From positions 1-28,404 of the IMG/VR virus record IMGVR_UViG_3300035698_023916: a stretch of DNA of 28,404 nt; one strand, given 5' to 3'. Below the pieces are notes generated by a model that was not told the origin of the DNA, did not search any database, and saw nothing but the letters and a program-made list of their open reading frames with translations. Shown here in pieces: positions 7,625-27,369 of the stretch (its first letter is position 1; the number at the start of each line of letters is the position of its first letter). A program made the position numbers and the translations under genes. The DNA comes from a virus.

Positions 7625-8590
7625 TTATGTTATATTTACTTTACCTACTAAACCAGCCAATTCTATTCCAGCTACACCAAGAGTAACTGAACATGTTGCA
7701 TTCGATATTACAGCATCTGTTACACCTAAACTTACTTCACACGTAGCGTTTGACATATAAGCATCTACAGCCGTTAATTCTACTTTATTACCTGCTGCAT
7801 TTTCTGCTAATAATGTTGTTGTTCCATCACCATTTATATGATTACCCGCTGCATCTGTTATTTCAAAACCACTTGAAGTTAATTCTATTTTATTTTTATT
7901 TGCATCTTCAATTGCAATACCAGCAGAATCATGAGTTACTTTATTACCATTGCCATCTTCGGTATATATACCATCATCATTTATTTTTATAATATTTTTA
8001 CCTGCATGAATATTAAATACTTTATCAATTTTTATCCATGCATTATCAAACTTTAAATGTAAATTGCCATCCTTAGATAATGCTACTTGCCAAATATCAG
8101 ATATAAATATTACCTGTTTATTCTTTTCATCAGCTTCAAAATACATTGTAGGATCACTTGAAATATCTCCAAAATTTCTACCAGTTACTTGATTGTATTC
8201 AGCAGAATATTCTATAGACTCTTCATCTATATCTGCATCTTTAGCATCAGAAATAGTTTGATAATATGATGGATCATCATCAGCTTTTGCCTGAACAGGA
8301 TAATTATCTTTCCAATTACACCTATCAATTATTACCGGATAATGTGCATCACCATTTTCAAAAAATACCCACACCCATTCCTCTGCATAAATCGGTTGAA
8401 AATTCCTAGCAACTGAAAAATTTGATGTGGCTTTAGGTAAAAAATCATCTGTTATATCTGCCATCATAGGATACGCTCTTATTGTATATATCCCATTTTG
8501 TAAATCCTCATCTATTCCATTAGCTATTATTTGTGCTCGATATACACCCAAAAACTTATGATTATCAAATTTTTCTTCAAATATATTCAT
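7625..8590 (-). CDS. Central baseplate spike, T4 gp5 / P2 gpV-like (no lysozyme domain)
   Basis: 321 residues. Residues about 13-90 look like the gp5-type OB fold: 'GVYRAQIIANG', a basic strand, and 'EEWVWVFFENGDAHYPVIID', matching the family's 'G..V.v.f..GD...PvViG'. From about 165 the chain is beta-helical, with short pseudo-repeats of the form GNKxExxxxGxxIxDA (about 213-270), and it ends in two 16-residue repeats beginning SNATC (280-295 and 296-311). Together this is a trimeric membrane-piercing spike. There is no lysozyme domain between OB fold and helix, unlike T4 gp5. It follows the hub gene and precedes tip candidates, the usual order. Confidence 0.75.
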   Translation of the reverse strand: MNIFEEKFDNHKFLGVYRAQIIANGIDEDLQNGIYTIRAYPMMADITDDFLPKATSNFSVARNFQPIYAEEWVWVFFENGDAHYPVIIDRCNWKDNYPVQAKADDDPSYYQTISDAKDADIDEESIEYSAEYNQVTGRNFGDISSDPTMYFEADEKNKQVIFISDIWQVALSKDGNLHLKFDNAWIKIDKVFNIHAGKNIIKINDDGIYTEDGNGNKVTHDSAGIAIEDANKNKIELTSSGFEITDAAGNHINGDGTTTLLAENAAGNKVELTAVDAYMSNATCEVSLGVTDAVISNATCSVTLGVAGIELAGLVGKVNIT

Positions 8591-10088: not shown

Positions 10089-10973
10089 TTATTTATTTTT
10101 GTTTTTTATTTTTTCTATATAATCTTTAGCTTTTCCTGAAAGAGTTCCTATTGTACTATTAACACTATCAGCTATACTTAGAAAAAATTCTTCTAAATTA
10201 AGCGGTTTAGCTTCACCTACATCTTGTCTATTGTTTTTAAATTCATCTATTGTTAAATTAGTCCAAACATCCTGAAATAATACTTTCACAGATACACTTG
10301 CTGATAAAGGTACTCCTATTGATTGACCAGAACTTTTTAATTTCTGAACATTAAGAATATCCCAATCTACTTCAACATCCTGAATAACTACATTTTTTAA
10401 TTTTAACCAATTTCCTATTCCTATTTCACTAACAAACCAACTTATTTTGCCATTAAAAGGTCCATCTTTACCTGTATAAATAAAATTAATACCAGGAGGA
10501 CTTAAAAAATTACTTCCAATTTGTTCAAAAACATTAGGATTATCTTTATCTGATTCAACTGGTAATACACATTTTTGTAACATTCTTATTGGCAATTCAA
10601 CATCATTCACCGCATTGTTCTCTGCTTGAAAAAACATATTCAATGTAATCGTTGATGGTTTGGTAGAATTCCAAATTTGTCTATACATACTTTTTGTTTG
10701 TAATGATCCTACACCTGCTAATGTCAACAATTTTGATATATTAGCAGCAGCACCACTTGAACCCATTGTGAATATTTGAGACCAATCTGAATTAATAGTT
10801 TCTTTATATGAATTATCTTTTATCCAAGCTTTAAATTTGCCCCTTGGAAGTTCGGGTATAAAAATAGAATCATTATTTTGCCATTTTTTTATAGTGAATT
10901 TATATGTATGATAATCATTAGTTTGAACACCTTTTGTCCGATTTACATCTTTTAATATTGTTATTGTAGACAT
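10089..10973 (-). CDS. Baseplate protein, candidate tube-junction (gp48/gp54-type)
   Basis: 294 residues. Two segments stand out: 'TITLNMFFQAENNAVNDVEL' with 'PIRMLQKCVLP' (about 109-137), and 'VVIQDVEVDWDILNV' with 'GVPLSASVSVKVLFQDVW' (about 195-238). A sequence of 'sets of strands, then a P-x-L-x-x-x-x-V-P, then x-a-x-V-x-v-x-f' is common in baseplate and tube-initiation proteins placed right after the tape measure. Position directly after the tape measure agrees with T4 (29-48-54). I cannot tell gp48 from gp54 or from another inner baseplate protein. The C-terminal tail is Lys-rich. RBS AAAGGAGA. Confidence 0.45.
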   Translation of the reverse strand: MSTITILKDVNRTKGVQTNDYHTYKFTIKKWQNNDSIFIPELPRGKFKAWIKDNSYKETINSDWSQIFTMGSSGAAANISKLLTLAGVGSLQTKSMYRQIWNSTKPSTITLNMFFQAENNAVNDVELPIRMLQKCVLPVESDKDNPNVFEQIGSNFLSPPGINFIYTGKDGPFNGKISWFVSEIGIGNWLKLKNVVIQDVEVDWDILNVQKLKSSGQSIGVPLSASVSVKVLFQDVWTNLTIDEFKNNRQDVGEAKPLNLEEFFLSIADSVNSTIGTLSGKAKDYIEKIKNKNK

Positions 10974-10984
10974 AAAAATCTCCT

Positions 10985-13285
10985 TTATTGAACTTGAATA
11001 AAATATGGTAATAATCCACTAGCATCATTTGAATATCTCGGTACTACTGCTGTTACTTTTATATCACCTGTTGAAGCTTCTTTTTCTTTGGCAACTTTTA
11101 ACGCTTGATTAAATAATTTATCATATTGTTCTTTAAAACTTTCTATCATTGCATTTTTGTCTTTATCAGATAAATCACTTGTCTCTTTAAAAATTTTAAT
11201 AAATTTATTAAAATCACTATGTAAGGCTTTTTCATCTGCTGTATTTTCTGTCTTTATTGTACTCATCATTTTGTCTATAGTAAATTCAGGAGTTTCAAAC
11301 ATTTTCATAAATGTTTTATCTGTATTCTTCGCTAAATCTTTAAACACTTTTAATTCATTTTTAAACACTTTTAATTCATCTTGTTTCTCTTTAAGATCTA
11401 TATTCTCTTCTTCTGTTCTATCTTTTGTTTTTTTTAATATTTTAATTTCACTCTTTAATGTTTTAATTTCAATTTCTTTTTTTTCCGCTAATTCTTTTTG
11501 ACCTTCACCTAATATTCTTTTTTTACCAAACTTTTCTTCTATAAAATTAGACATTTGATTAGCTAATAAACCACCCAAAGGACCTGTTAATAAAGTAGCA
11601 GTTACTGTAGCAATTTTAGTTATATTACCTTTCTCTCCAACCGTTGACAATTCTGTACCTTTTACAATTTTATCAAGTTTTTTATCTGTTACTTTATTCT
11701 TTTTTCTATCTTCTTTACTAACTTTTAATCCCTGCTCTTTAAAAAGTCTTTGACCAAATATTTCTACATTTTGTAATTTATCCATTGCACTTTGAAATTT
11801 ATCTCCTAACCATTCAAATTTAGGTTCTAAAACTTTCCAAAGCCATTGACCAAAAGTCATTAATGTACCCAATAAAGCACCATATTTTGCACCTTCCGAT
11901 CCTGCAATACCACCTAAAGCAGCAAATTTGGCTATTTGTTTTAATCCATGTACCGCAAATTTTCCTAATGCACCTTCTTCTTTAACAAGTTTTCCTGTTT
12001 CTTCATCTCTTATAAGCTTTTTTGTTTTTTTATCTCTTTTATATAATTCCGGTGCTTCACCTGTAAGACCTTGAAGTAAACCAGACGGATCACCTTTACG
12101 AAGTTTATCAATACCCCGTTCACCCTCTTCCCCTTTATATAAATCTGACATAAACATCATCATTCCGGCAGCACCAGCAGCAACTTTTAAACCAGTTTTT
12201 ATTTTTTCTTTGGTGGTTGTTTCTTTTTCTTCTTCATCTTTTGGTTTACCCTTAAACGTTTTAATCAATTCTTTATGTCGAGTTTTTTCAACTTTATCAT
12301 CTTTTTTACCAAGTATTTTTTCAAATCTGGATTCTTTCTTATCTTTAACTTTTTCTTTTGCTTTAGATACTTTTTTATCACTTCCTATTTCTTTATTCTC
12401 AATAATCATTTGTTCATATATTTTTTGAGTATATTCATCTTTTGTTGGCAATTCCTGCCCTTTTTCTTTTTCTAATCCCCTAACTAAAGGTTTACTTTTC
12501 TCGATTTTATTAATTTTTTTGTCTTTTATGTCTAATACTAATGATTTAATACCTGTATCAATTTTTTCTTTTTTTTCTAATTTCAAAGGTTTAACATTAG
12601 TTTTAACTTTTTCTTTTTTTTCTAATTTTAAAGGCTTAACACTTGTATTTTTAATTTCACTAAAAGGAACTTTACCTTCCTTAAATTGTTTTCGCCTTGC
12701 TTTTTCTCGAAGATTTTCATCTTCTTTTGTTTTTTGAATCTTTAATTCTTTTTTCTTTTCATTTTCTTCTTTATTTCCAAATATTTTATCTTTTGTTTTA
12801 CCAAATAATTTTTTAACACCACCACCAATATCTATTCCAAATTTTTTTAACGTATCATCCAATAAACCAACAGTTTGTCCTATTGGTCCCATCGATTTTA
12901 ATATATTTGTAGTAGTTCCAACTGTTTTTTCTGTTACTTCATCAAATTTTTCACCAAGTACTTCACCTGTTTCTTGTGCAAAATCACCCAACTTTCTGCC
13001 TAACATATTAGGTTGTTGTTTAGAAAACTTTTTTATATCTTTTAAATTACCAAGGGGACTATACTTTTGTTCCATTTGCCCCTTAACACGATGAAACATT
13101 TTAGATTTACGAAGCTTTTGAACATTATATAATTCATCAACTTTTTTTCTTTTTTCTTCTGATATAGTTTGAGCATTATTTATATTTACATCGCCCTGAA
13201 TACGGACCGGTTTTTTTGATTTGATTATATTTTTAAAAGCATTATTTATATTCTTTTCTGCTTCTTTTGCTGACCTATTAGCCAT
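10985..13285 (-). CDS. Tail tape measure protein
   Basis: 766 residues, very rich in Lys and Glu, with long helical and coiled-coil stretches (about 170-360 and 595-655). Hydrophobic segments at about 364-379, 450-485 and 556-577 are typical of tape measure proteins that insert into the host membrane. A near-tandem 15-residue unit, VKPLKLEKKEKxxT, occurs at 216-229 and 231-244. The gene follows the tail assembly chaperone and precedes baseplate genes, the canonical place. By the usual rule of about 0.15 nm per residue the tail would be near 115 nm. The ATG has AAGGTGAG upstream. Confidence 0.75.
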   Translation of the reverse strand: MANRSAKEAEKNINNAFKNIIKSKKPVRIQGDVNINNAQTISEEKRKKVDELYNVQKLRKSKMFHRVKGQMEQKYSPLGNLKDIKKFSKQQPNMLGRKLGDFAQETGEVLGEKFDEVTEKTVGTTTNILKSMGPIGQTVGLLDDTLKKFGIDIGGGVKKLFGKTKDKIFGNKEENEKKKELKIQKTKEDENLREKARRKQFKEGKVPFSEIKNTSVKPLKLEKKEKVKTNVKPLKLEKKEKIDTGIKSLVLDIKDKKINKIEKSKPLVRGLEKEKGQELPTKDEYTQKIYEQMIIENKEIGSDKKVSKAKEKVKDKKESRFEKILGKKDDKVEKTRHKELIKTFKGKPKDEEEKETTTKEKIKTGLKVAAGAAGMMMFMSDLYKGEEGERGIDKLRKGDPSGLLQGLTGEAPELYKRDKKTKKLIRDEETGKLVKEEGALGKFAVHGLKQIAKFAALGGIAGSEGAKYGALLGTLMTFGQWLWKVLEPKFEWLGDKFQSAMDKLQNVEIFGQRLFKEQGLKVSKEDRKKNKVTDKKLDKIVKGTELSTVGEKGNITKIATVTATLLTGPLGGLLANQMSNFIEEKFGKKRILGEGQKELAEKKEIEIKTLKSEIKILKKTKDRTEEENIDLKEKQDELKVFKNELKVFKDLAKNTDKTFMKMFETPEFTIDKMMSTIKTENTADEKALHSDFNKFIKIFKETSDLSDKDKNAMIESFKEQYDKLFNQALKVAKEKEASTGDIKVTAVVPRYSNDASGLLPYFIQVQ

Positions 13286-13299
13286 AAGCTCACCTTGCC

Positions 13300-13479
13300 T
13301 TACATCATTATTTTATTTGGATTTGCTCGTCTTTTTGCATCTTTATTATCTTTCTCTATATAATATTTAAATTCAAACCAATCCATCGTCTCAACATCTC
13401 TCTTTGTAAAACCATTATTCTGGGCAATTGACGATATACAATCAAATATCCACATTATATTTAAGTTGTTATCTATTGA
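13300..13479 (-). CDS. -1 frame extension of the tail assembly chaperone
   Basis: This stretch lies between the zero-frame stop of the chaperone and the tape measure gene. In the -1 frame relative to the chaperone it is open from the T9 run (13479-13487) to TAA at 13302-13300 and reads SIDNNLNIMWIFDCISSI, then AQNNGFTKRDVETMDWFEF and KYYIEKDNKDAKRRANPNK. The 'GFT..DV..M.W.E..YY' pattern looks like real chaperone C-terminus. A separate start at the internal ATG (13455, 51 residues) is possible, but the 20 bases before it have no Shine-Dalgarno match. The slip would give a fusion of about 406 residues. Seen: frame, run, lack of RBS. Inferred: programmed frameshift. Confidence 0.6.
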   Translation of the reverse strand, partial: SIDNNLNIMWIFDCISSIAQNNGFTKRDVETMDWFEFKYYIEKDNKDAKRRANPNKIMM

Positions 13480-14519
13480 AAAAAAAACATTGGAGATATT
13501 GGATATTGTTCGAGTTCGCTAAATCCACAATTATAACAAGTAAATGTTAATTTATTACTAAATCCATGATATATTTTATCAATATATATACTCATTTTTT
13601 TTATTGTTGATAACGATAAACCCCTAACAAATTTTAAAAAATTTTCTCTATGCTTATCTTCAACAATTATATAATAATCAAAAAATTCTTTTAAATGTAG
13701 TATAAAATCTAAATCAAAAAAAGTTTGTAAATTATCACCTACTATCTGTAAAAAATATTTCTTTTTTAAAAGATCCTCAACCTTATCCATATTATCAATA
13801 GCTTCAATCTCTAATTTTTCTAATTGTTTATTCATCTTCATCAGAATATTTGTATTCTCACTTTGTTGATTCATCTCAACTTGTGCCTTATCAATTTCTA
13901 CTTTACTTAAATCTTTAGCTTTTTCTTTTAAATTTTTATATAAATCTACATTTGATTTTTGCTTGAATTTTTCCAAATCTTTTCTTAATTTCTGAATTTC
14001 TGTTATATGTAATAACTTATCAACTTCTTTAAAAGCTTTCTTCCTATAATTTATAAAATATTCATCTTTTTTATCTATATCTTCTCGAAGAGGCATATGT
14101 AATTTTATTTCTAATCTATTATTACCATCCTCATCTATAACTATCTCTTCACCAATAGATTTTTTAAGTATATTTTCTTCTTGTTTTGAAACATAAAAAG
14201 TATTAGCCGATTTTTTTTTACAATCTGGACAAGTAAATGAAATTTGATATTCATCATCTCTACAATTAATTTGTTGAACATAAAATAATTTAAGCCTATC
14301 CGGTTGGGTTAATTTATCAGTAGTTTTTATATACTCTGTTTTCCCCCAATCAATTAAATCATCAAAAACTGCTGTAAAAGTATCTTCAAAAGCTTCTCTT
14401 GACTCATCTATTGATAACATTAATTGAGTCCAATGTTCTACTTTAGCCCATTTCATCCAAACAAATTCAGGGTAATTTTTTAGTTTACCATTTGTTAATA
14501 ATTTAATTTTTTGATACAT
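13473..14519 (-). CDS. Tail assembly chaperone / baseplate hub assembly, T4 gp26-like
   Basis: 348 residues in the zero frame. It resembles the T4 gp26 family: 'LTQPDRLKLFYVQQINCRDD' then 'YQISFTCPDCKK' (residues 70-102), matching 'DR...l..lR..s.G..y.....CP.C', and a second pair CYNC at 328-331 followed by 'PISPMFFF'. The four cysteines may form a zinc site. A coiled-coil insert spans about 175-245, making it longer than T4 gp26 (about 208). It ends MFFFQ-stop, where the three Phe codons form T9. Known phage tail chaperones upstream of the tape measure often shift -1 at such runs; here the -1 frame is open for 59 more codons. RBS AGGAGATACT. Confidence 0.75.
   Translation of the reverse strand: MYQKIKLLTNGKLKNYPEFVWMKWAKVEHWTQLMLSIDESREAFEDTFTAVFDDLIDWGKTEYIKTTDKLTQPDRLKLFYVQQINCRDDEYQISFTCPDCKKKSANTFYVSKQEENILKKSIGEEIVIDEDGNNRLEIKLHMPLREDIDKKDEYFINYRKKAFKEVDKLLHITEIQKLRKDLEKFKQKSNVDLYKNLKEKAKDLSKVEIDKAQVEMNQQSENTNILMKMNKQLEKLEIEAIDNMDKVEDLLKKKYFLQIVGDNLQTFFDLDFILHLKEFFDYYIIVEDKHRENFLKFVRGLSLSTIKKMSIYIDKIYHGFSNKLTFTCYNCGFSELEQYPISPMFFFQ
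13479..13487 (-). promoter_or_regulatory. T9 slippery run, candidate -1 frameshift site
   Basis: Nine Ts read TTT TTT TTT in the zero frame, then CAA TAG. The run contains a canonical T_TTT_TTT heptamer two codons before the stop. A slip of one base backwards enters the open -1 frame at TCA ATA GAT. Confidence 0.65.
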
Positions 14520-14537
14520 AGTATCTCCTTTTAATTT

Positions 14538-15167
14538 TTATATTGTTGTAAATGTTGTTACACTTGGTACAAAAGTTATATTCATCCCATTATTAACATC
14601 AAAAGTAATCGAAACAGGTTCTTGCATTCCTGCATCAGCATAATCATATCTTTGTTTAGTTATCGTCCTTGGAGAACAGCCAAAATAATTCCTTATCTCT
14701 TTAACAGCATCATTTCTATCATGTATTATAATTTTTAAATCTCTCTCATAAAGATTTCTAGGCAATTGTGTATTAGTACTAGTTTCAAACATTAATTTAC
14801 ACCAATTGTAATACATTTGTTTTGCTGTAGAATCAGTATCCGAATAAAAATCTATTACTAATGGATCAACATCATTAGAATTTAATACTGAAATTTTTGT
14901 CGAACCTATATTTTTTGCCTCAGCACTTATTTGAACTTCTGGCAATTCAACCGATTTCACTAAACCAGTTAATTTGAAAGCTTGAAAAGTACTTGCTATT
15001 ATTAAATCTGGTATCCTTTCAGTATCAAATGCACCACCTTTAGCGTTAGTTGCGGATATATTAATACTCGAATAAGCCCAACTTAAAGGAGTAAAATCAA
15101 TTTCAAATTTATATTTAGGCATTAAATCAAATCTGGACTTTTGGCTTAAAGGATCAATTCCTCTCAT
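14538..15167 (-). CDS. Tail tube protein paralogue (T4 gp19-like), third copy
   Basis: 209 residues. 'LVKSVELPEVQISAEAKNIG' (about 69-88), 'PLVIDFYSDTDSTAKQMYYN' with W, and 'YFGCSPRTITKQRYDYAD' followed by 'PVSITFDV' match the gp19 family: 'V..v.lP......  .g.....  l.l.f......  ..y..W......Y.gcfP..i.......  ...v.F'. This is the longest of three tube-like proteins in the cluster and the one nearest the chaperone and tape measure, so it may be the specialised form near the baseplate. It overlaps the previous stop by TAATG. Confidence 0.7.
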   Translation of the reverse strand: MRGIDPLSQKSRFDLMPKYKFEIDFTPLSWAYSSINISATNAKGGAFDTERIPDLIIASTFQAFKLTGLVKSVELPEVQISAEAKNIGSTKISVLNSNDVDPLVIDFYSDTDSTAKQMYYNWCKLMFETSTNTQLPRNLYERDLKIIIHDRNDAVKEIRNYFGCSPRTITKQRYDYADAGMQEPVSITFDVNNGMNITFVPSVTTFTTI

Positions 15168-15718
15168 TATATACTCTCCCCTACTAATCTTATTTGATCA
15201 AACGCAAAAACAGTATCAAAAGTTATATATCCCTCAACATTATCCATAGCCAACCCTTCAATTCCCATTTTCTTTTTAGGATATATCCCTTCAATAATAA
15301 ATATATGATTAGTTGGTTTTTTATCTAAATTTAAAAGAGTAACAGTAGCATCTGTTTTTAATGCCATCAAAGGAAAATTATCTATATTATTGAACCATTG
15401 CGATAATTGCAACAGTTGCCAACCACCTTCCGGTAACATGATAGTAACTGACCATTCATGAGATGCCCATACAGCACCATTTGGAACTGTATATGCTCCA
15501 TAGCGAGTATATACTATTGTTGAATCTCTATTTTTCGGTGGGATAGATGTATTCTTTATTAGGAATGACATTGAAACACCCTCACCAACAGTTGGCAAAT
15601 ATGGTATCATAACATTAAACATAAAGTTTTTTGTTATCATCCCATGAGCTTTTAAACCATTAACAGATGTTAAATAAACAAGCAAAGAATTTATATCAGT
15701 TATATTTGAATTAGCCAT
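15167..15718 (-). CDS. Tail tube protein paralogue (T4 gp19-like), second copy
   Basis: 183 residues. 'SMSFLIKNTSIPPKN' , 'SHEWSVTIMLPEGGWQLLQL' with 'SQWFNNID', and 'FIIEGIYPKKKMGIEGLAMD' then 'YITFDTVFAFDQIR' follow the gp19 tube pattern, including the 'G.yP.....  gl......  i.f...f.fD.i' ending shared with the copy at 16510-17028. It is translationally coupled to both neighbours by TAATG overlaps. Tube subunits form hexameric rings around the tape measure. Which of the paralogues is the major tube protein cannot be told from sequence. Confidence 0.7.
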   Translation of the reverse strand: MANSNITDINSLLVYLTSVNGLKAHGMITKNFMFNVMIPYLPTVGEGVSMSFLIKNTSIPPKNRDSTIVYTRYGAYTVPNGAVWASHEWSVTIMLPEGGWQLLQLSQWFNNIDNFPLMALKTDATVTLLNLDKKPTNHIFIIEGIYPKKKMGIEGLAMDNVEGYITFDTVFAFDQIRLVGESI

Positions 15719-16380
15719 TAAATTGAAATCTCCTTTGTATATTGAAGATTTGTTTCACCTGTTGTTTCATTCTCATCATAAATACTAAAAATAATAGTAT
15801 CATATAAATAATTATCTATTACATCAAAAATTAATACTTCACATAATATTGTATATGAATATCTATAATATCTACCGTGATCAAACATTCCTGTTAAATC
15901 AGAATTATCAGTTATATCTTCAAAAATTGTTTGTACTGTATATTTACAAGAATTACCATTAGCATCTACTCCCAAATCTAAACCAACTTCTTGAAAATCA
16001 AACTCTAACAATGCATCTTTTTGAAACTTATACCAATCTATATTTGATAAATTCATATATTTCATTTTATCTGCAAAAAAATCTATTTGATAACGAAGAG
16101 TACAATTAAGGTAATTTATTGATTTTTCATTACTTACTATATAATCTCTACGATAATTAGGAATTGACGTTACCCCTTCTTGTCTATCCGCAACACCTAA
16201 CCTAAAAACATTATAAAGAGGAAAAATTTTCTCACCTAAATTGTCTTTAGCTTTAGTAAAAACAGTTTCTATATCTGTAGGGTAATATTGCCAATTTGTA
16301 TTATCAACACTTAGAAATTTTTTCTGTAATTCTTCAGTAATCTTTATATCATATAAATCTAAACAATTTGTTATAACCAT
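15718..16380 (-). CDS. Structural protein of unknown role between tube genes
   Basis: 220 residues from MVITNCLDLYD. I chose 16380 because AGGAGATTTTTTT stands before it; a longer reading to 16446 adds a Tyr/Ile-rich stretch from the untranslated leader. Visible features: 'SINYLNCTLRYQIDFFADKM' and 'FQKDALLEFDFQEVG', then 'ITDNSDLTGMFDHGRYYRYS' with a Tyr/Ile-rich C-terminus. The 'Y.iD...........  .l.f.f' and 'nSDl......GR.yR' features appear in virion proteins near sheath and tube genes of large phages, and a tail terminator or sheath-end role is one possibility. I do not recognise a firm family. It has its own upstream motif copy and a terminator before it. Confidence 0.5.
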   Translation of the reverse strand: MVITNCLDLYDIKITEELQKKFLSVDNTNWQYYPTDIETVFTKAKDNLGEKIFPLYNVFRLGVADRQEGVTSIPNYRRDYIVSNEKSINYLNCTLRYQIDFFADKMKYMNLSNIDWYKFQKDALLEFDFQEVGLDLGVDANGNSCKYTVQTIFEDITDNSDLTGMFDHGRYYRYSYTILCEVLIFDVIDNYLYDTIIFSIYDENETTGETNLQYTKEISI

Positions 16381-16401
16381 AAAAAAATCTCCTGTTATAT
16401 A

Positions 16402-16412
16402 ATAAATATAAA
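16402..16412 (-). promoter_or_regulatory. TTTATATTTAT motif upstream of 15718-16380
   Basis: Exact 11-mer, 22 bases before the start codon and downstream of the terminator at 16439-16486. The order terminator, motif, RBS, gene suits a promoter that restarts transcription. Confidence 0.45.
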
Positions 16413-16438
16413 TATATTTTATACAACAAGAGATTTTG

Positions 16439-16486
16439 TAAAACAAAACGATAGGAGTAGCTATATTATCATTAACGCCTATCGTT
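16439..16486 (-). terminator. Rho-independent terminator after first tube gene
   Basis: On the coding strand AACGATAGG pairs perfectly with CCTATCGTT (16486-16478 and 16455-16447) across a 22-base loop. The 3' arm runs into TTTTGTTTT. It lies just past the stop of the tube gene at 16510 and would limit readthrough into the next gene. Confidence 0.7.
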
Positions 16487-16509
16487 CTATATAAAAATTT
16501 AAAATTTAT

Positions 16510-17028
16510 CTAAAATGTTAAAATATTATCTGGATCAAAATTTACATCATCAACCGCAAATGTTACATCAAATGCTATAAAACCGTCTGATGAATCTTGA
16601 TCAAGCCCTGAAATTTCAGGTTTATTTAATGGGAAACAACCTAAATATTGAAATCTCTTATTTACCGTAACCTTATCTAAAGCTAAAAGTGAAATATTTA
16701 TATCTGTTTTTGCTTTCTCTACATCTACCACATTAGATTCCTGATCTGTATAATCATACCATTTCAGAATATTATCATATACTGTATGTGTTTCATCTAA
16801 TAATATTGATATAGTTGCTTCACCTTCAAACGTTGTACCAGATGGTTGATTAAAAAAATCATTTAAATATCTTATTTGATCTTTTGATTTTGTTTTGCCC
16901 GGAATAGTAATTGACCGAGCAAGAAATTCAAAATTATTTGCACCAAAATCAGGTATATTTGGAATTGATATTTTCCACATAAAAGTTTTTTGCATCATAC
17001 CAATTGATCGTAATCGTAATAAACTCAT
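16510..17028 (-). CDS. Tail tube protein (T4 gp19-like), first copy
   Basis: 172 residues, close to T4 gp19 (163). 'FEFLARSITIPGKTKSKDQI', 'EGEATISILLDETHTVYDNI' with 'LKWYDY', and 'RFQYLGCFPLNKPEISGLDQ' then 'GFIAFDVTFAVDDVNFD' give the full tube pattern, including 'l.gcfP......l......  ..f.vtf..d'. It follows the sheath gene and one small ORF, and it is followed by a terminator, so it can be expressed at high level with the sheath. Of the three tube-like genes this is the best candidate for the main tube subunit. RBS AAAAGGAGATAATAAAT. Confidence 0.8.
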   Translation of the reverse strand: MSLLRLRSIGMMQKTFMWKISIPNIPDFGANNFEFLARSITIPGKTKSKDQIRYLNDFFNQPSGTTFEGEATISILLDETHTVYDNILKWYDYTDQESNVVDVEKAKTDINISLLALDKVTVNKRFQYLGCFPLNKPEISGLDQDSSDGFIAFDVTFAVDDVNFDPDNILTF

Positions 17029-17293: not shown

Positions 17294-19150
17294 TTAAACT
17301 AATTCACTATATAATGAATTACTTGTATATATCAAATTTAGGGTTACTTCTCTTGCCAATTGCTGCGAAACGAAAGTTAAATCAACGATTATCTTTCCAG
17401 CATCTTTTGTTATATCTGTATTCTTACCAAAATCAATATTCCATTTGTTTGGTTCAATAGTACCATCAAATAATATAATTTGTTTTAAATATCCTACGAT
17501 TAAAGTTTCTATTAATAAAAATGTTTCAGCATTAATAACTTTAAAATTAACAACTAACAATGATGTTCCAAACTCTTTAACCATTGAATTAATTAAAAAT
17601 ACTGTATTTTGATATGATGAAGCAGATGATTTTTTCTGCATTGTAAAATCTGCATATATTACATTACCATAAGCTCGAATATATCTAATTACATTAACAC
17701 CAACTTTACTTAACAATGCTCTTTCCGCTGACTTAAATGCTCTTTCCGCCTTAACCGAATTTATAGAACCTCGGTTTTCACCAATTCCGGCTGGTGGCAT
17801 AAATGGTTGATTTGCAACACCAACTAATCTTGCTTTTTTCATTGCTGCAAGTGCTGATGCCGGGCATAAATATGATTTGCCTTCAAAACTCATATATTGA
17901 TTTGGAGAAAAAGTACAAGTATTTCTTGAATCAATATTTAATGTTGTTGTAATCCATGTTATAATATTCGCAGCCGTATCAGAAATAGTATCAATATATG
18001 CTACATTATCTCTAGCATTAACTAATGTAACTATTTCATCTATAACTGTTTTTTCTGTAATTCCTGCACCACAAAATAAATCCCATGCAAATTTTTCATT
18101 TTCAAATAATGCAATTGCTGTAGCTTGTTCTGTTGAAGTTGCTGCTATACCGTCATCACCACCGTCACAATAAACTATTGTAGATTGATCTGCTGGTACA
18201 ACTCTACCATCAATATCAGAATTATTTATAATCCAAAAATTTGTTGAATTTGATTCCGCAACATCTTCTATAAAAAGATTAGCTCCAAATCCATTAGCTG
18301 CACCTGATACCCGGCTTACTGTATATTCAACTATTTCAGATTCAGTACCATCAGCTTGTTTAATATATTCTACAATAGTAAAAACTGCATTGTTATTATC
18401 ATTATGATAAGTTGAATCTTTTATTTTTACACCCAGTCTATCTGACCAAGTTTTTTTACTTCTTGCAATAAGAGCAAATAATTCTTCTGTTGTGTAATAT
18501 GAATAATCAATTTCAATATCCGCTGCATTGTCAATAGCGTAACCAGCATTACAAGTAAGAATTATATCACCAGTTGCATAATTAATTTCTAATTTACTTA
18601 AACCTGTAGCTGCACTAGTTAATACACCATTTCCGTCAACATCTTTTATATTATAAGTTGTACTAGAAATTGTATAACTTATTGTTGCTGTTTTTGGTAC
18701 TATTGGTTTATTAACAGTATTAATTAAATATGCTAATGTACTACCATCACCTGTACCTAAGACTTCATCTAAAACAGCAGTTTCAACTACTGCGGAAAAT
18801 GTATAATCATCTCTTACTGTTACACCTGCAGCAAAAGGGGTATAAGTCTCTGTTTTTGCTAAAATACCACCATATTTAGCATCTTTAGTTACATTTAATA
18901 TATAAACACCCGCTGCTTCATTAAGTATTTCTACAGCTGAAATATAAGCTGGTTTATCAACTGCGTTAGTTATAGTACCAAAATGAGTTTCTAAAAATCC
19001 TTTTGTTACTAATAATGGTCCATCGGGATCGGTTTGATCAGGGCCTTTTTCAAATTCTCCAATTTGAGCCATAACATTACTAGCATTGAATATTATAAAA
19101 TCACTTTTATCTATTGGCACAACTCGTACACCTGGATTAATATTAGGCAT
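17294..19150 (-). CDS. Tail sheath protein (T4 gp18-like)
   Basis: 618 residues, close to T4 gp18 (659). The N-terminus has MPNINPGVRVVPID, the PGV start typical of sheath proteins, and continues 'GEFEKGPDQTDPDGPLLVTK' as in the family's '..G.f.kGP...p..v.s'. The C-terminal half holds 'AAMKKARLVGVANQPFMPPA' with 'GIGENRG' , 'KVGVNVIRYI' and the conserved closing region around 'SAERALLSKVGVNVIR' and 'LAREVTLNLIY'. Sheath subunits contract around the tube to drive the spike. It starts a cluster of major tail genes. RBS AAAAGGAGATAAATT. A motif copy lies 52 bases before the start. Confidence 0.9.
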   Translation of the reverse strand: MPNINPGVRVVPIDKSDFIIFNASNVMAQIGEFEKGPDQTDPDGPLLVTKGFLETHFGTITNAVDKPAYISAVEILNEAAGVYILNVTKDAKYGGILAKTETYTPFAAGVTVRDDYTFSAVVETAVLDEVLGTGDGSTLAYLINTVNKPIVPKTATISYTISSTTYNIKDVDGNGVLTSAATGLSKLEINYATGDIILTCNAGYAIDNAADIEIDYSYYTTEELFALIARSKKTWSDRLGVKIKDSTYHNDNNNAVFTIVEYIKQADGTESEIVEYTVSRVSGAANGFGANLFIEDVAESNSTNFWIINNSDIDGRVVPADQSTIVYCDGGDDGIAATSTEQATAIALFENEKFAWDLFCGAGITEKTVIDEIVTLVNARDNVAYIDTISDTAANIITWITTTLNIDSRNTCTFSPNQYMSFEGKSYLCPASALAAMKKARLVGVANQPFMPPAGIGENRGSINSVKAERAFKSAERALLSKVGVNVIRYIRAYGNVIYADFTMQKKSSASSYQNTVFLINSMVKEFGTSLLVVNFKVINAETFLLIETLIVGYLKQIILFDGTIEPNKWNIDFGKNTDITKDAGKIIVDLTFVSQQLAREVTLNLIYTSNSLYSELV

Positions 19151-21000: not shown

Positions 21001-21369
21001 TTATCTCTTGAATTGTATTCCATCTTCTTCTATTTTACGTTCAAAAAAATCTAAATTATGTTTACCATATAAAATATATTTTTCATACATTTTGCCTATC
21101 GCTTCTAATATCTTATATGAATAAACATCACGACAAACCGTTATTAATTCATACCATTCACCATTAGTATTATGCCTTCTAAACCAATTTTTTAAATAAG
21201 CTTCTTCTTTAAACATATCTTTTACTTCAAATAAATAAATTAATTTTACACCCGCTGCACTAGTATTTTGTAATGTCTTTAATCTTTGGTCTATGTTTTT
21301 TGAAACACCTATCTTGAATATTTTTTTGTTAGATAATGATTGCAATAAATATAAATATTCTTTCTTCAT
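21001..21369 (-). CDS. GIY-YIG-type nuclease domain protein (MUG113/T5orf172-like)
   Basis: 122 residues. 'YLYLLQSLSNKKIFKIGVSK' with 'NIDQRLKTLQNTS', then 'LIYLFEVKDMFKEEAYLKNW' and 'NTNGEWYEL' match the short GIY-YIG branch seen in MUG113 and T5orf172 proteins: 'YvYll......yKIG.s.n...Rl..lq', 'E..lh..f......gEWf.l'. The YLY...KIG pair replaces GIY-YIG, the Arg after DQ and the Glu of GEW are in place, so the nuclease site may be intact. In phages these can be homing-like nucleases. Unlike its neighbours it has no visible Shine-Dalgarno site (AT-only before ATG), and it separates neck genes from tail genes, which fits insertion as a passenger. Confidence 0.7.
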   Translation of the reverse strand: MKKEYLYLLQSLSNKKIFKIGVSKNIDQRLKTLQNTSAAGVKLIYLFEVKDMFKEEAYLKNWFRRHNTNGEWYELITVCRDVYSYKILEAIGKMYEKYILYGKHNLDFFERKIEEDGIQFKR

Positions 21370-26060: not shown

Positions 26061-26675
26061 TTAAACATCTATTTCTGACCAATGTTTCTTCGCTATCAAA
26101 TTCATTGCCCAATATCCCATCCCATTTCCTGGACTAGGTATTTCTCTACCAACACTTTCAAAAATAAATGGTCTGCCATTTACAAAACTTGTATAAATTG
26201 GTGAATTATAACCAAGCTTGCCTCTTTCAAATGGTTCTTTCTTACCAAAACCTAACCAATTATTTACACAATGATTAGTTCCAACTAAAAATGCTTTTGC
26301 TTGATTCTGTATGGCACCTCTTGGTACTATCAAAACAGAATCTTGTTCAAATTCAAAACCTAAACTTCTTAAATCTTTTTCTAAATTTCCATTATCCTGT
26401 AAATCAACTACAAAAAAACTTTCCTCTTTACCAACAGTACCGCCCTCTGGATATTTACCTTTTAAAGAAGTTACACCATACCCAGCAGACTTCAATTGTG
26501 CTAATAATGATTTATTCCTTTGTATGTTTTCTTTTTTTGTATATGGTTCACCTTTACCGCAATCTCTTGCTTTTCTAAATGCTGTCAAAGCACCGCAATC
26601 ATGTAATTCATTATGTCGCCAAATTCTTGATAGACTTGACTCATTAAATTGCTTGTTTTCTAATTGTACTATCAT
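26061..26675 (-). CDS. DUF3293-like domain protein with MIVQLE leader
   Basis: 204 residues from MIVQLENKQFNES. I chose 26675 because GGAGGTAACAAA is directly upstream; a reading to 26738 would begin within the previous gene. 'GALTAFRKARDCGKGEPYTK' , 'KENIQRNKSLLAQLKSAGYG' , 'GKEESFFVVDLQDNGNLEKD' and 'LGFEFEQDSVLIVP' match the DUF3293 pattern ('iTa.np......eN..RN..L...L...gy.....  .E.S..v......  ....fgQ.avl'). The C-terminal part (about 130-204) is an added unit with 'FLVGTNHCVNNWLGFGKKEP'. The function of the family is not known to me. The neighbour upstream has the same core, so the two are likely paralogues. Confidence 0.6.
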   Translation of the reverse strand: MIVQLENKQFNESSLSRIWRHNELHDCGALTAFRKARDCGKGEPYTKKENIQRNKSLLAQLKSAGYGVTSLKGKYPEGGTVGKEESFFVVDLQDNGNLEKDLRSLGFEFEQDSVLIVPRGAIQNQAKAFLVGTNHCVNNWLGFGKKEPFERGKLGYNSPIYTSFVNGRPFIFESVGREIPSPGNGMGYWAMNLIAKKHWSEIDV

Positions 26676-26679
26676 TTTG

Positions 26680-27369
26680 TTACCTCCAATAGTCTTTAAT
26701 TTCTGATATGTCTGATCTTTTAATCCAATTAAGATCACCCCTTGATGACCAAAAATGTTTTAATACCTTATTTTCTTCTTCAACAATTTTTTTATTAACC
26801 ATTCTTATATACACCATTTTATCATCTGGAATTCCTTGATATGTTTCAGCATAAAGTCTATTTAACTCTTCCGTGATTTTGTCAACATTAAATGGTATAT
26901 TAAACATCCAACTTTTGCTTTTAGAAAAATAATCTTTCGGTTCTTTATCATATGTTACTACATAATCAACTTGATCCTTTAGTTTATATGGATTATTAAT
27001 TCCAGCTTTTTTATAATAATAAAACACTATTTTCCCATTATCCTTATTATCCTTATTTTCTGCATATATAAAAGATTCTTGATTATATCTTTTACCAAAT
27101 TCTAATAACTCATCTTTATTAATATTCATAATAACTAATGGATTTTCATAATAACCATATTTACCTTTTATTTGTATATATTTAAACATACCTCTCTTCA
27201 ATAATTCTTTAAATTCATCCTGTCTATCTTTGTTCTCAGCATTAGTTAATCTTTCACCCATTGGATTTTGTGCCGTCATAATACCAAATGAATATATACC
27301 AGGCTCTACACCATGCATCAATCTTTTAAATCTTGTTTGTGGATTTTCTAAATGTAAATTTTTCAACAT
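26680..27369 (-). CDS. DUF3293-like domain protein, second copy
   Basis: 229 residues. 'YSFGIMTAQNPMGERLTNAE' then 'NKDRQDEFKELLKRGM' , 'IKGKYGYYENPLVIMNINKD' and 'FGKRYNQESFIYAE' (about 26-105) follow the same pattern as the gene at 26061-26675, in the standard order and spacing. The C-terminal half (about 110-229) differs and is basic. It ends DYWR-stop like the next gene upstream, and that last stretch (TGGAGG) provides the RBS of the gene at 26675. No MIVKL leader. RBS AAGGAGAG. Confidence 0.6.
   Translation of the reverse strand: MLKNLHLENPQTRFKRLMHGVEPGIYSFGIMTAQNPMGERLTNAENKDRQDEFKELLKRGMFKYIQIKGKYGYYENPLVIMNINKDELLEFGKRYNQESFIYAENKDNKDNGKIVFYYYKKAGINNPYKLKDQVDYVVTYDKEPKDYFSKSKSWMFNIPFNVDKITEELNRLYAETYQGIPDDKMVYIRMVNKKIVEEENKVLKHFWSSRGDLNWIKRSDISEIKDYWR

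Follow-up and report, generated by a model that had tools for sequence, protein, structure and literature searches.

The window, by which we mean the whole 28,404-nucleotide stretch analysed here (IMG/VR record IMGVR_UViG_3300035698_023916), is a 28.4-kb viral fragment of 27% GC with its genes on the minus strand. These genes end in 25 TAA, 6 TAG and 5 TGA codons, which is stop usage of the standard code. We focus on the junction between a putative tail-assembly chaperone gene and the presumed tape measure gene. The features of the region are as follows:

17294..19150, minus strand: tail sheath protein
16510..17028, minus strand: tail tube protein, 172 aa (phrog_45, E=1.5e-19)
15167..15718, minus strand: tail tube-like protein (phrog_45)
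14538..15167, minus strand: tail tube-like protein, upstream of the chaperone (phrog_45)
13473..14519, minus strand: putative short tail-assembly chaperone (TAC-N, T4 gp26-type), 348 aa in the zero frame, profile-profile score 30.4-36.8
13479..13487, minus strand: run of nine T's (T9), a putative slippery site with the in-frame heptamer U_UUU_UUU at 13485-13479, aligned with the TTTTTTC of relatives
13473..13475, minus strand: zero-frame stop TAG of the short product, read from the sequence
13300..13479, minus strand: putative -1 frame extension (TAC-C, gp51 C-terminal-like), 59 codons plus TAA; the long form would have 406 aa
13453..13455, minus strand: internal ATG of the -1 frame without a Shine-Dalgarno sequence, the rival start of a 51-aa protein
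10985..13285, minus strand: presumed tape measure protein, 766 aa, named from position, size and synteny only, without a family match
10089..10973, minus strand: PmgG-like protein, downstream of the presumed tape measure gene, as in relatives

The chaperone gene lies between tail tube genes, recognized by their PHROG matches, and the presumed tape measure gene, recognized by its size, position and synteny. Its wider neighbours are sheath, tail tube, PmgG-like and gp25-like genes, in an order that matches that of Rhizobium RHph_N46, QdP_Psa3, phiXF1 and PhiXhv-12. Other parts of the minus strand have features of their own. The stretch that separates the 172-aa tube gene from its neighbour contains a hairpin at 16447-16486 (AACGATAGG...CCTATCGTT) followed by T-rich DNA; it is terminator-like by eye and absent from the scan output (loop too long). 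The listed 242-aa ORF at 15718-16446 begins at a TTG without a Shine-Dalgarno sequence, and its real start is probably the ATG at 16380 with AGGAG upstream (220 aa). Among the head-tail joining genes is a 122-aa protein (21001-21369) whose related PHROG families include a homing endonuclease, and a probable SAM-dependent methyltransferase with a GTG start (26061-26738; phrog_30877, phrog_2226) overlaps its upstream gene by 59 nt. Two altered readings of stop codons were rejected. TAG read as glutamine would gain only four codons before a TAA at the chaperone end, and stop usage is standard; TGA read as tryptophan alters nothing at the chaperone junction.

The 348-aa chaperone ORF (14519..13473, minus strand) ends ATG TTT TTT TTT CAA TAG, or M-F-F-F-Q-TAG. 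The T9 run occupies 13487..13479 and is followed by CAA (13478-13476) and TAG (13475-13473), one codon thus separating it from the stop. Within the run, U_UUU_UUU (13485-13479) fits an in-frame heptamer of the X_XXY_YYZ type. After a slip, reading in the -1 frame would continue S-I-D-N-N-L... for 59 codons to the TAA at 13302-13300, for a fusion of 347 + 59 = 406 aa, and 14 nt separate the end of this frame from the ATG at 13285 of the 766-aa gene. T9 is the sole coding-strand run of nine or more T's in the window. Because about two are expected in such AT-rich DNA, the run alone is unremarkable; what is remarkable is its position. None of the other predicted proteins contains FFF.

The -1 frame reads as coding. 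An open frame of 59 codons has a chance probability of about 0.004-0.005, depending on whether local or global stop density is used. By codon score the -1 frame ranks above 662 of 664 off-frame windows and falls at the 5th percentile of windows from true coding sequence. Between the chaperone and the presumed tape measure gene, the -1 ORF occupies a gap of 187 nt, the sole large one in the tail module; no other gap in the annotated part of the window is as long. The frame is open upstream of the ATG at 13455, back past the T run, while the +1 frame is closed after the junction. At this ATG there is no Shine-Dalgarno match, which is present at three or more nucleotides in 33 of the 36 genes. 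The initial annotation had described the T9 run and its MFFFQ-stop, a protein-like -1 frame giving a 406-residue fusion and an internal ATG without a ribosome binding site, and all of these are borne out, coordinates included. A downstream stimulatory RNA structure is frequent in -1 frameshifting but not universal, and hence no defining requirement; here, folding without pseudoknots gave nothing above shuffles (z=-0.34).

The family of the chaperone was not evident from curated HMM thresholds, under which it had no match: PF12322 and phrog_150 were both absent and phrog_13792 appeared at E=0.42 only. The relatives with a +1 extension, discussed below, likewise fall under the PF12322 cut-off, so this threshold is not decisive. 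Comparison by hhalign gave a score of 33.7 against a T4-like gp26/gp51 profile (0 of 200 shuffles as good), 36.8 against a profile of relatives from large phages (0 of 100) and 30.4 against an environmental T4-like gp26 profile (0 of 60), with P of about 1e-3 to 2e-4. The window chaperone has two CxxC motifs, CPDC and CYNC. Its alignment spans the second half of a zinc ribbon (FTCYNCGF in the window, MKCSRCGF in a relative) and stays in register to the terminal FF or last residue. This weak relationship, which stands above shuffles, indicates a remote gp26/gp51-type tail-assembly chaperone, an identity that the neighbouring tail genes and their order fit. The AlphaFold model of the chaperone was unusable (mean pLDDT 47).

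Close relatives were not found by scanning viral contigs with the chaperone, sheath, baseplate wedge and tube proteins, by scanning genome contigs with the chaperone, or by a distant DNA search with positions 12000-16500. One sheath match (L002) was rejected, as it covers 57 residues only on a contig without a recognizable tail module. With no close relative, the run and frame are not comparable within the window's own lineage.

Among T4-like phages, the same junction is evident. The gp26 ORFs of S-CAM4, ACG-2014f and Vibrio 6E35.1a end in FFG-stop, FFA-stop and FFV-stop, respectively. In the DNA of all three, TTTTTTC is followed by one codon and the stop, after which the gp51 extension continues in the -1 frame. 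The zero-frame chaperone and the -1 extension are both matched by a single gp26/gp51 profile, phrog_150, or by phrog_634, which is the gp51 part of it. The gp26 locus of IME-SM1 (L033) has a similar two-frame layout; the baseplate region of this baseplate relative (L021) was uninformative. At least 568 related places turned up when IMG/VR was scanned with the T4-like extension, and the best 80, environmental T4-like loci, were analysed. The extension is in the -1 frame in 79 of these best 80 and TTTTTTC is near the stop in 74, with the same geometry as in the window; these are best matches, many of them alike (37 distinct at 80% identity, four from named phages), and not 80 independent events. 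The TTTTTTTTTCAATAG of the window aligns with the junctions of these T4-like relatives. The relatives' -1 geometry and the profile alignments support the initial proposal that a T4 gp26-type chaperone, encoded immediately before the presumed tape measure gene, is extended by a -1 slip. As for whether homologues keep the run and the frame, nearly all of these best matches have the frame, and nearly all have a T run as T6C, not T9.

The extension itself was compared with the C-terminus of gp51. A profile of four -1 extensions placed the window -1 ORF first among 336 window ORFs (E=0.013), while a 37-sequence extension profile placed it third (E=0.099) and addition of gp51 to the extension profile moved it to sixth (E=0.85). 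Against T4 gp51 alone, 20 of 300 shuffles and 4 of 164 segments did as well as the window extension. Given how rank and E vary with the profile, homology to gp51-type extensions is suggestive, not proven.

We consider it very probable that the locus encodes the chaperone of a divergent contractile-tailed virus, with a minority -1 ribosomal slip on U_UUU_UUU producing a 348-aa short and a 406-aa long form. Most ribosomes would end at the TAG and release the short chaperone. A minority, with their tRNAs on UUU UUU, would slip one base back into the -1 frame and add 59 residues to form the long product. By analogy with lambda gpG/gpGT and T4 gp26/gp51, the abundant short form would cover the tape measure protein, and the extension of the scarce long form would bring in tail-tube subunits.

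The same protein outcome would follow if it were RNA polymerase that slipped, adding a U on the T9 run so that a U10 mRNA encodes the fused long chaperone. Nine T's are within the length range of known polymerase slippage, the run is set in 27% GC DNA, and the T4-like relatives have only T6. However, nearly all of the T4-like relatives examined have TTTTTTC, which is too short for efficient polymerase slippage, and the window retains a perfect in-frame U_UUU_UUU. Because of the T6C of the relatives we take the ribosome to be the usual agent, and slippage by the polymerase alone appears unlikely here. It is very unlikely that the two frames yield separate proteins, the second being a 51-aa product made from the ATG at 13455 by re-initiation or coupling after the TAG, with no fusion. 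This ATG does lie 17 nt past the stop codon, and a small separate gene is annotated at the corresponding place in PhiXhv-12 and BcepSauron. However, it has no Shine-Dalgarno sequence, the -1 frame extends upstream of it past the T run, and in relatives (T4 gp51, the longer paralogues of PaBG and Erwinia phages) this region continues the chaperone without a change of frame. An assembly error has a slimmer chance still. The window is a single viral contig, homopolymers are error-prone, and one more T fuses the frames, so that a true run of T10 (or T7) would make one continuous 407-aa ORF without any frameshift; against this, the two-frame layout recurs at the same residue in the contigs of 79 relatives among the best 80, and a two-frame reading is therefore expected in the window. 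An untranslated -1 frame that merely happens to be open is scarcely credible, for although about two T9 runs are expected in such DNA and 59 open codons have P of about 0.005, the codon score, the end 14 nt before the next gene and the layout shared with relatives all argue otherwise.

Minority -1 ribosomal slippage, the reading that we prefer for the window, would be one of several means by which related chaperones come in a short and a long form. In T4, gp26 (208 aa) and gp51 (249 aa) are members of the same family, both matching PF12322/phrog_150, and gp51 amounts to gp26 with about 48 additional residues. This is like the window in pairing a short form with a C-terminally extended one, but the T4 proteins are encoded by two paralogous genes on opposite strands with no frameshift. 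Tandem gene pairs in which the second is about 45-65 residues longer at the C-terminus are present in PaBG, Lu11, HRDY3, two Erwinia phages and Sen-NF (loci L020 8401-10130, L014 3498-5261, L022 2186-3716, L023 2185-3719, L024 1969-3722 and L025 2193-3710). In these phages, as in T4, gene duplication takes the place of frameshifting. A comparable extension, fused in one frame, is present in T4 gp51 and in the longer paralogue of PaBG, Lu11, HRDY3 and the Erwinia phages. The annotation of phage HRDY3 also lists two tail sheath genes, separated by about 20 kb (212220-213860 and 233426-235018, corresponding to L004 11566-13206 and L024 1-854). Two-gene homologues had been named in the initial annotation as evidence against a frameshift; they do exist, in T4 and in the PaBG, Lu11 and Erwinia phages, but as each is a short plus a long paralogue they support the short/long logic instead.

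A further arrangement is found in seven other phages or contigs, in which the extension is in the +1 frame: RHph_N46, QdP_Psa3, phiXF1, PhiXhv-12, BcepSauron, Motura and the IMG/VR contig L012. Apart from L012, the +1 extensions are at L003 15900-16285, L006 5195-5389, L007 5102-5284, L008 5027-5476, L009 5321-5590, L010 and L013 3794-4003. A further scan for +1 relatives found no more. The sites are TTTCCC-TAA in the Rhizobium phages, QdP_Psa3 and phiXF1, TTTCCCTCT-TAA in BcepSauron, TTTTCTTCCCAGT-TAA in Motura and CTT-TGA in L012. In the last, a 238-kb contig, the chaperone ends at this CTT-TGA (8390-8430) and the +1 frame then runs up to the tape measure gene; CTT-TGA is the +1 shift site of bacterial release factor 2. 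A profile of tandem long paralogues only picks the +1 ORF as its best match in six of the seven loci (E 1.8e-10 to 0.12), and for PhiXhv-12 a single PHROG family has matches in both frames, to the chaperone in one and to the extension in the other. The +1 extensions are annotated as separate hypothetical genes or left unannotated. These phages resemble the window in superfamily, in gene order and in having an extension, of about 50-64 codons, that precedes the tape measure gene. They differ from it in the frame, which is +1 and not -1, and in their mostly TTTCCC-TAA-like or CTT-TGA sites. Membership of the window in this group was rejected, as its site differs, its +1 frame is closed and the long-paralogue profile misses its extension.

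The variants of the superfamily comprise -1 sites of T6C (most T4-like phages) and T9 (the window), +1 sites of TTTCCC-TAA and RF2-like CTT-TGA, tandem paralogues in PaBG, Lu11 and the Erwinia phages, and dispersed paralogues in T4. There is roughly an even chance, in our judgement, that one superfamily has repeatedly switched its short/long means between -1 slips, +1 slips, tandem paralogues and dispersed paralogues, with the window as a deep -1 branch in which T9 may add polymerase slippage. The present comparison extends T4-type frameshifted tail chaperones to a very divergent virus and brings slips in either direction, -1 or +1, together with separate paralogues in one superfamily. It can address why the short-to-long ratio matters and why phages alter its setting. 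The small 'hypothetical proteins' annotated between the chaperone and tape measure genes of several large phages probably represent the latter part of a gene that is read with a frameshift.

Of known frameshifted chaperones, lambda gpG/gpGT belongs to another protein family and uses the slippery site GGGAAAG. As proposed for the window, its gene precedes the tape measure gene and gives short and long forms through a -1 slip near the 3' end (PMC5009743). The 2016 review describes G/GT frameshifting as widespread 'except T4'. The initial annotation proposed that a clear case would tie gp26 to the lambda-type G/GT system. However, PMC12846349 cites Vladimirov, Gautam and Davidson (Virology 2022, 566:9-15) for poly-T slippery sites of T4-like chaperones, and by that citation the chaperone genes were identified in 2022, so the tie is not new. 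An earlier observation that cyanophage gp51 is short of about 200 N-terminal residues (PMC3037559) fits a frameshifted extension annotated by itself. Phage Adele (Pakpunavirus/Vandenendeviridae), likened here by site and layout, has a myovirus TAC with a -1 shift before the tape measure gene, as proposed for the window, at an invariant GTTTTT motif and in another lineage (PMC12846349). The nearest counterparts are the gp26/gp51 genes of cyanophages and marine T4-like phages (S-CAM4, ACG-2014f and Vibrio 6E35.1a), which share with the window a gp26-type chaperone, a T run, separated from the stop by one codon, as the place of the -1 shift, and an extension, of about 55 codons, that ends at the next gene. 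Their site is U_UUU_UUC (T6C) in contrast to the T9 (U_UUU_UUU) of the window, whose 348-aa chaperone is larger, has an extra central segment and retains only remote sequence similarity. Frameshifted chaperones of T4-like phages have therefore already been described, and the window differs from them in its T9 site and its divergence.
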